This document shows positions 2,139 to 58,126 of a DNA stretch of 64,000 bases, piece after piece. The position numbers and the translations under genes were made by a program. The notes under the pieces are model-generated. The model was not told the DNA's origin, ran no database searches, and saw only the letters and a list, made by a program, of their open reading frames with translations. The DNA is taken from positions 62,001 to 126,000 of the forward strand of contig JAJDBF010000011.1 of NCBI GenBank assembly GCA_029261535.1, read 5' to 3'. The stretch's first letter is position 1, and each line of letters starts with the position of its first letter. The DNA is from Nitrospinaceae bacterium (GTDB lineage: Bacteria > Nitrospinota > Nitrospinia > Nitrospinales > Nitrospinaceae).

Positions 2139-2180
2139 TGGTGCGCTGTCCCGCGTCTGCACTGAAAATTGTTTGATTTA

Positions 2181-2280
2181 AGGGCACCTCTAAAAATTGC
2201 TTTTGGCCGCGAGCAGACCATGATTTTAGAGGGTCTGCGAGTTGCCGGAACAGAAAATATTGGGTTTTTCGAGGTTCCCT
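2181..2280. repeat. Palindromic repeat element, copy 1 (intergenic)
   Basis: This element of about 100 bp is bounded by AGGGCACCTCTAAAAAT on the left and its imperfect inverse GTTTTTCGAGGTTCCCT on the right. Inside is a second inverted pair, GCAGACC / GGTCTGC. The same outer ends and the core words GGCCGCGAGC and GCGAGTTGCCGG recur at 10004-10126 and inside the pseudouridine synthase gene at 57882-57980. It has no coding capacity of its own. It sits 42 bases downstream of the DHH gene stop. Confidence 0.75.
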
Positions 2281-2282
2281 TA

Positions 2283-9987: not shown

Positions 9988-10003
9988 GGATTTTAAATTT
10001 TGC

Positions 10004-10126
10004 AGGGCCTCTAAAAAATGTTTCAGGTTGCGAGGTGTTCGCGCACGGCTAACAAAGATTTCCTCTGTTAAATTAAGGAAACGCGAGTTGTCGGACCTGA
10101 AATTTTTGAATGATTAGAGGTGTCCT
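10004..10126. repeat. Palindromic repeat element, copy 2 (intergenic)
   Basis: This element of about 123 bp fills almost the entire gap between asnB and the upstream glycosyltransferase. The ends are AGGGCCTCTAAAAAATG and the inverse TGATTAGAGGTGTCCT. An inner inverted pair TTTCAGGT / ACCTGAAA makes the whole unit a long imperfect palindrome. The right half (GCGAGTTGTCGG...GAAATTTTTGAA) aligns with copy 1 and with the copy inside the pseudouridine synthase gene. Confidence 0.65.
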
Positions 10127-10130
10127 GACG

Positions 10131-41552: not shown

Positions 41553-43628
41553 TTAACGCGATTCTATTTCAGTTAACAGTGCTTCGGCTTCGAGAGTCTG
41601 GGAAGGTTCCAGATGGAATCGAAGTGCTTGCTGAAGGTGTTCTGCCGAGCGAGACAGGTCACCGTGTTCCCATAACAGTTTGCCGAGAAAATAATGTCCG
41701 GGTCCATTCTTTGGATCGTGGATCAGCGAGCGTTCAAGCGCGGTGATGGCTTGTTCCCATTTCTGCTCGTTATAAAAAAGGAGAGCCAGGGATGCCTCCA
41801 CTCTGGCCAGTGCGGGCGGATTTTTAAGGAGGGTGCGGAGCGACTGGTAATATTTTATCGCGGCATTTATTTTTTCCCTTGCCTGTAAAATTTCCCCGAG
41901 CAGTAAATACCCCTCCGCGTGTCCCGGTTTTTGCCTGAGGAATTCCCGCACTTCTTTTTCAGCTTCTTCAAATCGTTTTAAATTGAGGAGCACACGGCCC
42001 TTGTACAGGCCGGCTGTGGCAGGCAGAAGGTGTTTTTCAGGATGGTATTTCCGGACGGCGCGGGCCCGGTCGAAAGCTGAATTGGCTTCCTCATCCATGC
42101 CGCGCGTTGCAAACAGCACACCGAGATTGAAATGTCCCGAGGGCAGGCGCGGGTAAATTTGCACCGCCTGAACAAACTCGCGTTCGGCGTTTGCCATGTC
42201 TCCCCACAACGCATAAATATTTCCCAGGTTGGTGTGAGCGTAAGATCGGTAATACGGCGTGGCGTTGGAGGCGGCGAGTTTCTTGAGCATGACAAAGGCG
42301 TTGTCGAACTGATTCATCTCAGTATAAAAATAACTGAGGTTGTGGTAGATGCGCGGTTTGCCCGGATTTTTTTTCAGCGCGTCTTCCCAAAGTGAAACAT
42401 TCGATTCGTACACCGCGTTGCGATGTACCAGCAGAGTCATAAAACAAAGAACCGTGATCCCGGCGCAGAGGGTGATCAATCGCCGGGCCTGCTTGCTACT
42501 GTGCGGCCCGAAGCCCAATCGCTCCGCAAAACCGGCTCCCAGAAAAAGCAGTCCGAACGATGCCAGATATAAATTGCGTTCGCTGAGCAAATCCATGCGT
42601 GGCAGAAAACTGTTGGTGGGCGACAGGATGATCAGATACCAGCCCACCCCGAAGGCTACCAGCGGGTAGGCTCGATAGAGCTTCAGCCATAACCAGGAAA
42701 GAACACCGATGGCGAACAGGGAGGTGACGATTCGCAGTGTGTCGGTGGACAGGCTGGAATAGGGCCATTCGTAATCGAACACCTGATTGATGGGAAGCAG
42801 AACCATCTTGGCGCCGAAGGGAATCACGAGCAATTGTTGCAGGGCGTAACCTGGATTGATTTTTTGTGACCAGGTCACCACATGTTCCCACAGAAATGGA
42901 GAGACCATGAACAGTGTGGCGAGGGTGAGGAGGATCGGTGCGTACACCCAGGCGATACGCGGTTTGAAGAAACGAAAATTTTGATTCCGCATGAAGCAGG
43001 CATCGTAAAGCAAAAACGCGGCGGGCAGGGTGATCGCCGTTTCCTTGGACAATAGAGCCAGTGCACCGGAAAAGAAACACAGGCTGTAGCTGGCAATGCG
43101 CTTCACCCATGTGGTCTGGCGAATTTCCGCATGGATGAATCCGAAAAGTGAGAGCAGGTAAAACAGAGCCATCAACGAACTGGTGCGTCCGGCAATGTAA
43201 GACACAGATTCGGTCTGGATGGGGTTGAACGCAAACAACAGGGCGGTGAGTGAGGCCATTCGAAGTGCGGATTCGCGGCCCCAGTCCAATCCCTTTTCAA
43301 TCGTGATGCGCGTTACTGAAAAAACGAGCAGACAGGCGAGAAGGTGTATCCCGATGTTGAGCAGATGGTAACCAAACGGATCATTTTGCCCCAGATGATA
43401 ATTGAAGGCAAACGTCAGGTAAAAAATATGGCGGTAGTGCAGGACCTGAGCTTGCAAATAATGATCGAGAGTTTGAATGGTATGATTGTTGAGGATCACC
43501 ACCCCATCGTCAAAATTAAAGGGTGAGTTGAGGACGGAGGAATAGCCAAAGGCCACGCCCAGGCCGATGGTCAGCCCGACTAAAATACAAATCAACCGTT
43601 GCCGGTTGCCGGTGTCAATTGAGATCAT
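41553..43628 (-). CDS. TMTC-like membrane protein with C-terminal TPR repeats
   Basis: The start at ATG 43628 overlaps the end of the upstream paralogue by 14 bases. The product has about 691 residues. The first 400 are membrane-embedded with about ten helices: a FNFDDGVVILNN segment in the first loop (acidic pair of GT-C enzymes), SYIAGRTSSLMALFYLLSL, and LPRMDLLSERNLYLASFG, which resembles the ER-Y-Y motif of eukaryotic TMTC O-mannosyltransferases. The last 280 residues carry about six TPR units (for example HTNLGNIYALWGDMANAEREF). A polyprenyl-phosphate-mannose-dependent protein glycosyltransferase is a reasonable guess from fold only. It and the next gene are diverged duplicates. Confidence 0.78.
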   Translation of the reverse strand: MISIDTGNRQRLICILVGLTIGLGVAFGYSSVLNSPFNFDDGVVILNNHTIQTLDHYLQAQVLHYRHIFYLTFAFNYHLGQNDPFGYHLLNIGIHLLACLLVFSVTRITIEKGLDWGRESALRMASLTALLFAFNPIQTESVSYIAGRTSSLMALFYLLSLFGFIHAEIRQTTWVKRIASYSLCFFSGALALLSKETAITLPAAFLLYDACFMRNQNFRFFKPRIAWVYAPILLTLATLFMVSPFLWEHVVTWSQKINPGYALQQLLVIPFGAKMVLLPINQVFDYEWPYSSLSTDTLRIVTSLFAIGVLSWLWLKLYRAYPLVAFGVGWYLIILSPTNSFLPRMDLLSERNLYLASFGLLFLGAGFAERLGFGPHSSKQARRLITLCAGITVLCFMTLLVHRNAVYESNVSLWEDALKKNPGKPRIYHNLSYFYTEMNQFDNAFVMLKKLAASNATPYYRSYAHTNLGNIYALWGDMANAEREFVQAVQIYPRLPSGHFNLGVLFATRGMDEEANSAFDRARAVRKYHPEKHLLPATAGLYKGRVLLNLKRFEEAEKEVREFLRQKPGHAEGYLLLGEILQAREKINAAIKYYQSLRTLLKNPPALARVEASLALLFYNEQKWEQAITALERSLIHDPKNGPGHYFLGKLLWEHGDLSRSAEHLQQALRFHLEPSQTLEAEALLTEIESR

Positions 43629-45834
43629 GGTCTGGTGGGATGCGGGATAGCAACTGCTCAACCATCTGCCGCTTGTTGGCATCCTTTGTTTGGTTCAGCA
43701 GGATTTCAAGATGATGGCGCGCCAGATTCTGGTCGCCTCCATGTTCCAGAATTAATTTGGCTAGGTTGAAACGGGCGGACAGATTTTCTGGAGCCAATTG
43801 AAGGGTTTGCGTGAGTGTTGCCTGCGCTTCATCAATCCTGTTTTGGCTGACCTGGGCCATGGCGATTTTAAAAAGCACTTCAGCTTTAATTTTTGGAGAG
43901 GTGAGCACCTTCTGCCAGTGAGCAATGGCCTCGTTCGCATGCCCCAACGCCAGTTCAATATTGCCCAGCAACAAATAACCGTCGCTCTTTTCTGATGCAG
44001 AATTTAATAATTGTGTGGCTTCCTGTTTCGCTTCCTTAAATTGATTTTGACGCAACAGGATGCGGGCGCGGGTGAGGTGAAAGCGCGGCTTAAGATTCGG
44101 GGCAAGATGCATTTTATTTTTCGCCAGCTCGGTTTCCTTGAAGGCTTGAGGGAGCAGACCCTTTCGCACAAACAGAGCCGCCAGATCAAGATACGCGTGC
44201 GGCAGATGCGGCCGGGCTGTCCGGGCTTGTCTAAATTCCGCTTCCGCTTGTTTTAATTTCCCCTGAGTGGCCAACTGCACGCCTGATAGCAGTCGGGTGA
44301 AATACAAAGGAGTCTGGTTTCGATGCAATCCGGCCAACTCGCGGTAAACCTGCCCGTACATTTTGTACTGACCGGGATCAGATTGCACGATCTGTTTGAG
44401 GTTTTCCAGAAGTTGAAGATGACTTTTCCATTGTTTGCGGGAAGCTTCGTCGCTGGCAGTGACTTTTCTGGCCAGAGCAGGATATTTTTTAGACAAACGC
44501 GCCATTTCACGTCTGGCCTCGGCGGAATCTCCTGCAAGAAAATGTGCCATCGCTAAATAATAATGGACTTCACTTTTGTTCGGCGATTTTTCTAACGTGT
44601 CCTGCCACAGGGTGACGTCGTTTAAGTAAACATGGTTGCGGTGGTGGGTTAAAGATCCGAAGCACACACAAATTATAAGCGCAGAGGCTGTCATTAAAGG
44701 TGTCGAACGAAAGGCGGATTTTTTTTCCAGCAGAGAGTTCAACAGCAGGCCGCCCCACCAGCAAATCCCGATAGAGGGAAGATACAGGTTGCGTTCACTG
44801 AGTAAATCCATTCGCGGCAAAATGCTGTTGGTGGGCGAGAGGATGATCAAAAACCAGAAGACGGCAAAGGTGAACACGGGTGGGCTTTGTCGGCGGAATT
44901 TCCACGCGGTGACTAAAAGAATTATCCAGAACAGGATGGAAACGATTTGAAACGGGCCGCTTAAAAAAGAGGCTCGCGGGAAATCGTAATCAAAAGTCAG
45001 GTTGAACGGTAGAAAAATCAACTTTAAAGCGTGAGCCAAAACCGGCAATTGATCGAGAGTCAGGTTCCATTGGATGCGGTTCAGCCAATGTTGGGCCTGA
45101 ATCGAAAATGTGGGCGAGATTAAAAATAATAGAACGGCTCCCGCGACAAGAGGTCCGTAAATTATTTTCCAGCGAAGAGAGGGCGGTGCCCAGGAAAAAC
45201 CACGCATGAAACATAGATCGAAGAGCAGGAGGCCGAGGGGCAGGGTGAGGCTGGTTTCTTTGCTCAGGGCCGCGCCGATTCCTGCAAGAAATAACAGCGG
45301 GAAGGCGATGATTTTTTTTCCGGAGCCGGTTTTTTTCAATTGGGATATTGCAAAAAAATACAGGGAGGAAAGATAAAACAGGGAAGACAAGCCGCTACTG
45401 CGTCCCGAAATATAAGTGATCGTTTCGGTGTGGACCGGATGCAGGGCGAACAAGGCTCCGGCAATGAAAGCGACCCGGTTTGCCGATGGAGCTTTCCATC
45501 CGTAACCCTCGAAAAGCGTCAGGCGGATCAGGGCCATTAACAGACAGGTTGAGATCAAATGCAGGGCGAGGTTGACCGCATGGTATCCCCACGAATCAAG
45601 CCCTCCATAGGCAAAGTTGATTGCGAACGATGCGGTCAGCCATTGTCTGTAGTGAGGCGGAAAATTCCAGAACGATTCGGGGTGTTCGATTTCAGGATGC
45701 GATTGAATGGTGGTGTAGTCATCGGAATGAAACGAACCGTTGAAACCATTTTGATTTACGAAGACGACCGCCGCCAACAAAATCATGACAGCTACAAGGT
45801 GGCGAATATTAATGGACTTGAAATCGGTGTTCAT
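43615..45834 (-). CDS. TMTC-like membrane protein with C-terminal TPR repeats, second copy
   Basis: This 739-residue paralogue of the downstream gene has the same plan: an N-terminal GT-C-like membrane region with FHSDDYTTIQSHPEI in the first outer loop, TYISGRSSGLSSLFYLSSL, LPRMDLLSERNLYLPSIG, and a TPR region from about residue 420 on (AEAEFRQARTARPHLPHAYLDLAALF, and so on). The ER-x-LYLPS motif is closer to TMTC than in the first copy. It overlaps its downstream paralogue by 14 bases and follows the WecA-like gene by four bases, so the three are one operon with an undecaprenyl-phosphate transferase. Confidence 0.78.
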   Translation of the reverse strand: MNTDFKSINIRHLVAVMILLAAVVFVNQNGFNGSFHSDDYTTIQSHPEIEHPESFWNFPPHYRQWLTASFAINFAYGGLDSWGYHAVNLALHLISTCLLMALIRLTLFEGYGWKAPSANRVAFIAGALFALHPVHTETITYISGRSSGLSSLFYLSSLYFFAISQLKKTGSGKKIIAFPLLFLAGIGAALSKETSLTLPLGLLLFDLCFMRGFSWAPPSLRWKIIYGPLVAGAVLLFLISPTFSIQAQHWLNRIQWNLTLDQLPVLAHALKLIFLPFNLTFDYDFPRASFLSGPFQIVSILFWIILLVTAWKFRRQSPPVFTFAVFWFLIILSPTNSILPRMDLLSERNLYLPSIGICWWGGLLLNSLLEKKSAFRSTPLMTASALIICVCFGSLTHHRNHVYLNDVTLWQDTLEKSPNKSEVHYYLAMAHFLAGDSAEARREMARLSKKYPALARKVTASDEASRKQWKSHLQLLENLKQIVQSDPGQYKMYGQVYRELAGLHRNQTPLYFTRLLSGVQLATQGKLKQAEAEFRQARTARPHLPHAYLDLAALFVRKGLLPQAFKETELAKNKMHLAPNLKPRFHLTRARILLRQNQFKEAKQEATQLLNSASEKSDGYLLLGNIELALGHANEAIAHWQKVLTSPKIKAEVLFKIAMAQVSQNRIDEAQATLTQTLQLAPENLSARFNLAKLILEHGGDQNLARHHLEILLNQTKDANKRQMVEQLLSRIPPDHDLN

Positions 45835-57343: not shown

Positions 57344-58126
57344 TTATCGCGGCTCCCATTCTGAAGTGGGAGCTTCGATCACCAGCTCCTTGTGGTTGTG
57401 CGGATGGGTCAGGATCAGCTTGCTGGCACACAGCGCAATTTTATAATCCCCCAGCCGTGTTTTGGCGCGGTATTTTAAATCCCCGACGATGGGGTGCCCG
57501 ATGAAAGACAACTGGGCGCGGATCTGATGGAACCGCCCGGTGTGCAATTCCACCTCCAATAAAGCCACCTGCTTTATTTTACTCAATACCCGGTAACTCA
57601 GAACCGCACGCTTGGCATCCGGAGCCGGGCGAGGGAACACCGTTGCTTTGAGAGATTTTCCCTTGCGAATAAAATGCGTGAGGCACGCTTCTTCTTTTTC
57701 CGGAATCCCTTCCACCAGACAGCGGTAGAATTTTCTCATGTGACGTTGCCTGATCTGGTCGGACAGGCTGGAGGCGGCGGCGCGGGTTTTGGCGAATACC
57801 ATCACCCCTTCAACGTTGCGGTCCAGCCGGTGGATCAGCCCGACAAACGTTTCATCCTGCTGGGACTGTCGAGAATTTTTCAGGGCACCTTTAAAAGTCG
57901 CATCTGGCCGCGAGCGTCTCTTGTCAGGCAAGCGGGAGCGAACTGCTGGTATAAAAGGTTTTGAACGGTGGGAGGTTTTTTTTAAATAATCGCGAATCGC
58001 CCCGGTGAGTGCCGGTGCGCCGGACTTGTCCCCCTGCGCCAGCCACCCTGCGGGTTTCAGAACGGCGATCAAATGTTTGTCTTCAAAAAGAATAGCAAAA
58101 GGCAGAGCGGATTTTTTTTCGTTCAA
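57344..58126 (-). CDS. RluA-family pseudouridine synthase with an in-frame repeat insertion
   Basis: The 260-residue enzyme isomerises uridine in RNA. The motif containing the catalytic Asp is HRLDR at 99-103 (Asp102), and LLEVELHTGRFHQIRAQL near 191-208 is the conserved RNA-binding segment. The start is TTG 58126, overlapping the DUF502 stop (TTGA). There is no S4 domain. Residues about 49-82 (the KKTSHRSKPFIP...RPDATFKGAL segment) form a basic insertion not expected between the first strand block and the FVGLIHRLDR motif. It coincides with palindromic repeat copy 3 at 57882-57980. The catalytic core on both sides is intact, so the enzyme is probably functional. Target site unknown. Confidence 0.9.
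   Translation of the reverse strand: MNEKKSALPFAILFEDKHLIAVLKPAGWLAQGDKSGAPALTGAIRDYLKKTSHRSKPFIPAVRSRLPDKRRSRPDATFKGALKNSRQSQQDETFVGLIHRLDRNVEGVMVFAKTRAAASSLSDQIRQRHMRKFYRCLVEGIPEKEEACLTHFIRKGKSLKATVFPRPAPDAKRAVLSYRVLSKIKQVALLEVELHTGRFHQIRAQLSFIGHPIVGDLKYRAKTRLGDYKIALCASKLILTHPHNHKELVIEAPTSEWEPR
57882..57980. repeat. Palindromic repeat element, copy 3 (inside the pseudouridine synthase gene)
   Basis: The 99-bp segment starts AGGGCACCTTTAAAAGTCGC. Over its first 34 bases it matches copy 1 (2181-2214) at 29 positions, including GGCCGCGAGC. Its right half (GCGAACTGCTGG...GGTTTTGAACGG) aligns with the right halves of copies 1 and 2. It is read in frame on the minus strand as residues 49-82 of the enzyme. 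It has no stop in that frame and 99 bases is a multiple of three. Confidence 0.72.

Follow-up and report, generated by a model that had tools for sequence, protein, structure and literature searches.

The RluA-family pseudouridine synthase gene described here carries one complete copy of a repeat that is dispersed in the genome, and we consider it highly probable that this copy is a MITE that inserted in frame, was tolerated by the enzyme and then drifted. The window (the whole stretch of DNA analysed, G000:C11:62001-126000, 64 kb with 50% GC) belongs to an assembly of 3.45 Mb in 84 contigs, called G000 below. The gene, its insert and the other copies of the repeat in the window are the following.

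57344-58126, minus strand: RluA-family pseudouridine synthase gene, ORF of 260 aa (PF00849, E 1.8e-30)
57883-57981, minus strand: in-frame MITE copy of 99 bp encoding about residues 50-84, delimited by model R1 and by its absence in homologues
57982-57984, minus strand: 5' target-site triplet TAA (TNA) of the RluA copy
57880-57882, minus strand: 3' target-site triplet TGA (TNA) of the RluA copy, one base different from the 5' triplet
2178-2282, minus strand: intergenic MITE copy 1 with its TNA triplets, 116.6 bits, perfect TTA duplication
9999-10128, minus strand: longer MITE copy of 130 nt with an internal insertion, 43.6 bits, between an asparagine-synthase-like ORF and the next upstream ORF

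The first-pass annotation had matched the first 34 bases of the segment to copy 1 at 29 positions, and this match was recovered inside a BLASTN alignment of 32/38 nucleotides with window positions 2177-2214, far above chance. The covariance model R1, built from an alignment of 17 other copies and leaving the RluA copy out, matched the latter over positions 1-105 with 72.3 bits; the E value was 8e-10 for the whole genome and 2e-11 for the window set. The 5' end is poorly conserved. When the segment was compared by BLASTN with its own genome many copies appeared, so the resemblance is that of a true genome-wide family and not a chance one. The 99 bp length given at first was kept, with boundaries shifted from 57882-57980 to 57883-57981, between the TNA triplets. 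The insert is in frame and free of stops as claimed; its size is not the 33 residues (49-82) first proposed, since the net insertion is 99 + 3 = 102 bp, that is 34 codons (about residues 50-84), which preserves the frame.

The ends of the 99-bp repeat unit are imperfect inverted repeats (GGGGACCTCTAAT... and GGGCACCTCTAAAAA...), and a hairpin lies inside it. The terminal inverted repeats are GGGGACCTCTAA / GGGCACCTCTAA; the best copies show complementarity at about 12 of the 17 end positions. A triplet, mostly TNA, is repeated on both flanks; it was identical in 42 of 101 copies versus 13.1 expected when left and right ends were shuffled between copies (p<=1e-4). The family is short, multi-copy, dispersed and with no room for a transposase, the features of a MITE, here with a TNA target duplication of 3 bp. 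At E<=0.1 model R1 found at least 102 matches in G000, at least 98 in G001 and at least 15 in G002, three genomes of one genus; these counts are lower bounds, since at most 150 candidates were scored in each genome. About a quarter of the copies have 114-167 nt owing to internal additions. A search of Rfam with the repeat gave no match.

The element had been called palindromic, which holds for the family and not for the RluA copy itself, whose DNA folding z-score was +0.5 (-2.8 for copy 1 and -3.0 for a consensus-like sequence) and whose inverted repeats have decayed to 8 of 17 complementary end positions. This loss is expected of an older, diverged copy (72 bits versus 124 for the best ones). 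We considered palindrome loss as a mark of coding copies and rejected it, because other coding copies still fold and non-RluA copies of similar divergence also lack the hairpin; the decay follows overall divergence.

The comparison with homologues suggested in the first-pass annotation was clear-cut. The 34-residue segment was absent from all 28 aligned RluA homologues, in which the sequence continues directly past the insert site. They comprise an orthologue of the same genus with 81% identity (G002, 226 aa) and 27 others, both Nitrospinota and distant, 16 of the proteins coming from named Nitrospina, Nitrospinaceae or Nitrospinota genomes, where the closest named relatives of the protein are also found. 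The G002 orthologue reads GAIRDYLK-AKQKGKQDD-IFVGLVHRLDRN where the window protein, 34 residues longer, reads GAIRDYLKK-TSHRSKPFIPAVRSRLPDKRRSRPDATFKGAL-KNSRQSQQDETFVGLIHRLDRN. The G001 orthologue ends at a contig edge and says nothing about the insert. Homologues resume right after it, and the flanks match the family core as had been stated. The PF00849 domain, the catalytic HRLDR motif (residues 99-103) and the RluA fold are all present and identify the protein as an RluA-family pseudouridine synthase. The top Foldseek matches were RluC and RluA. AlphaFold predicted the RluA fold with confidence, most residues outside the insert having pLDDT >90, and the insert as a disordered loop, with residues 55-90 nearly all at pLDDT <50.

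The sequence of events is most probably as follows. Insertion of the MITE duplicated a TNA triplet and added 102 bp to the gene; the element landed in the orientation and phase that are usually stop-free, so that translation would read through. In this way 34 basic residues, predicted to be unstructured, lengthen a surface loop that lies after the N-terminal helix and before the HRLD motif, and the copy was probably tolerated, and later drifted, because the enzyme retained its fold and catalytic residues. The same process has acted in three or more further genes of G000. No adaptive role of the insert is demonstrated.

Copies inside coding sequences, which the first-pass annotation proposed to list, were sought among 101 copies of G000 by screening the frames through the element and the coding character of the flanks. 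Most lie outside reading frames. In-frame coding copies were four of about 100, the one in the RluA gene and three more, all sharing one orientation and frame of the element and giving peptides such as FKETSNNSKFPVPATRAPFKTKGGSRPETIFRNSLA.

G000:C68:820-2070 (L184, L153): MsrA-MsrB fusion gene, MITE at C68:1295-1399 as interdomain linker
G000:C70:233524-234624 (L192): gene of an SGNH-hydrolase-like protein, in-frame MITE at C70:234089-234193
G000:C62:3171-4688 (L346): gene of a TPR / carboxypeptidase-regulatory-like protein, MITE at codon 13, C62:3209-3313

A further in-frame candidate, at C2:122124, was dropped as its translation resembles that of a tRNA-antisense frame. The SGNH-hydrolase-like protein gave weak AlgX-like/GDSL matches past the insert and had no relative among 30 genomes, hence no empty site to compare. 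The insert of the TPR protein, whose start was deduced from the ribosome-binding site and from orthologues, precedes the core of the signal peptide and lengthens the stretch before it to about 48 residues. The MsrAB insert was also found in G002, in frame, still open and diverged (65 of 108 nucleotides identical); R1 gave there 11.4 bits for a full-length match in the right place, individually non-significant. It was absent from the sister species G001 and from the other aligned relatives, so that alignments document in-frame insertion with empty sites in orthologues for both RluA and MsrAB. The MsrAB linker of G014 (L186), from another family of the order, is lengthened there independently, by a shorter segment of its own of roughly 20 residues. 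Three of the four gene-borne copies sit in a loop (RluA), a linker (MsrAB) and an N-terminal tail (TPR), and all four have the permitted orientation and phase, which is the pattern that purifying selection on random insertion would leave. The best reading is that the element inserts selfishly and is tolerated where it meets a loop or a linker.

A different view is that selection has kept the 34 basic residues because the synthase, or MsrAB, gains something useful from them, for example RNA binding. The encoded peptide is indeed basic, and the MsrAB insert came through a speciation still open and still in frame (dN 0.46, dS 1.0). However, most intergenic copies encode the same kind of basic peptide, so the one in RluA is not tuned to that enzyme, where moreover the insert is disordered in the model and missing from the sister orthologue. 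Besides, the MsrAB insert evolves faster at the protein level than its flanks (dN/dS about 0.45 versus 0.13 and 0.06, from few sites), and it appears to be under relaxed constraint. We therefore regard co-option as very unlikely.

That the insertion inactivated the RluA gene, leaving a young pseudogene that is open by chance, seems to us very unlikely. The gene starts with TTG, overlapping the stop upstream, and loops near the active site can matter; but the same TTG start is found in the G002 orthologue, the 260 codons have remained open despite the long divergence of the copy (72 versus 124 bits), the codon usage of both flanks of the insert resembles that of coding sequence, and alignment with homologues shows that every residue invariant across the family is retained. 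A family-specific loop resembling the intergenic repeat by chance could be imagined from the mere two other copies in the window and the weak 5' end, but it is already refuted by an end-to-end match (E 8e-10) to a model that excluded the RluA copy and by boundaries that coincide with the 34-residue gap of the orthologue.

The frame used by the coding copies was open in 42 of 68 near-full-length G000 copies, against 0, 15, 26, 2 and 13 for the other five frames. The same frame was open in 15 of 19 copies in G044, 1 of 20 in G013 and 0 of 12 in G016. Openness is therefore not conserved over the order, which argues against selection for coding, and an order-wide selection for the open frame is unsupported. 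The idea that the MITE has been shaped by coexistence with genes, its multiple-of-three unit and single near-stop-free frame being selected for harmless entry, is unlikely; if true, the element would amount to a transposon that genes can tolerate, one that repeatedly supplies proteins of marine Nitrospinota with new segments. Among 82 copies placed in G001, G012, G013, G016, G018, G021, G038 and G044 no convincing further in-frame coding copy was found, and the best candidate (L074 in G001) had a translation unlike a real protein. So far the coding cases are confined to the genus of the window.

The family was detected in 32 of the 61 genomes searched and in 12 of 16 genera, with a patchy distribution over the order. 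Its copies have probably been moved by an IS5-family transposase, as suggested by the similarity of their ends to those of one element in another genome.

G016:C159:415-1713 (L376): IS5-family element of about 1.3 kb, candidate autonomous partner

This element carries an intact transposase gene (369 aa, NF033581, E 6.6e-86) bounded by GGTGACCTCTAAAAAT and inverted GGGCGTCTCTAAAAAT and, like the MITE, has a TTA triplet on each side of ends that resemble those of the repeat. It differs from the MITE in its size and in its transposase gene, the ends being the part compared. Both ends were obtained by chance in 13 of 5000 shuffles, a figure to be read with several loci having been inspected. Transposase fragments in G049, G058 and G045 also have similar ends nearby. 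Facing pairs of MITE ends at the inspected loci were examined as candidate IS and turned out to be accidental, in most cases a MITE lying next to ordinary genes (that of G044:C432 adjoins an ABC-transporter gene), and the PF01609 transposases of G000, G044 and G013 had unrelated ends or no matching pair, G016:C159 being the only one that fits. In G000 itself we found neither an autonomous IS with MITE ends nor a homologue of the G016 transposase, so the family may now be immobile there.

The first-pass annotation compared the insert with the palindromic elements of Rickettsia, an apt comparison in mechanism that can now be refined with a MITE, a TNA duplication and IS5-like ends. RPE-1, -2 and -3 (Ogata et al. 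2000), as they are described in PMC2229807, PMC3767692 and PMC10969869, are likewise dispersed repeats of 100-150 bp found between genes and in frame within conserved protein genes, with a similar peptide translated, inserts in exposed regions and an insertion sometimes common to orthologues. They live in Rickettsiales, whereas the present family is from Nitrospinota; their target duplication is listed as unknown (PMC2229807), and nearly half of the copies are coding in R. conorii (PMC10969869), compared with four of about 100 here. RPEs proper have a Rickettsia or Wolbachia host and the nearest named relatives in our case are Nitrospina, Nitrospinaceae and Nitrospinota; by its host the family falls outside the RPEs.

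In-frame coding repeats are also known beyond Rickettsia, in Neisseria, enterics, Coxiella and archaea (PMC2229807, PMC5896051), and the mechanism resembles that by which Correia, ERIC, RU-2 and QMITE2 elements become fused in frame with genes (PMC2229807, PMC3767692, PMC5896051, PMC10969869). Correia/NEMIS (107 bp), ERIC and YPAL/RU-2 (PMC2229807) have other hosts, and in contrast to them the MITE lies internal to two conserved enzymes (RluA family and MsrAB) with empty-site orthologues. QMITE1 and QMITE2 of Coxiella burnetii are MITEs as well and share the occasional in-frame insertion or C-terminal extension (33 residues for enhC in one strain), but are a different element in another lineage, and the in-frame mid-gene cases named are hypothetical proteins (PMC5896051). 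The title of Ogata et al. 2002, cited in PMC10969869, presents protein-coding mobile palindromes as a Rickettsia speciality, and such palindromes tend to be discussed for intracellular bacteria. In the open-access literature we found no similar repeats in Nitrospina. Nitrospinota are marine and free-living, and the family works like RPEs, being a known type of element in a new case among free-living bacteria. This case has documented empty sites, conserved enzymes and one insertion kept through speciation; with an order-wide family, a candidate transposase partner and two same-genus genomes to compare, it offers a usable system for how frequently MITEs add protein segments and whether these ever become useful.

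Two other kinds of repeats were seen. The strongest internal repeat of the window (42553/44768, 103 bp) was rejected as a MITE, being a pair of similar genes; there, the 120-bp stretches 42553-42672 and 44768-44886 are 76% identical, in adjacent similar frames of apparently paralogous genes. Some long copies carry a second short repeat (about GTTAGCCGTGCGCCAGCACCTCACGGC) within the loop of the MITE, as at the following loci.

G000:C38:103489 (L015): long copy with the nested second repeat
G000:C18:47431 (L024): long copy with the nested second repeat
G000:C26:112976 (L021): long copy with the nested second repeat
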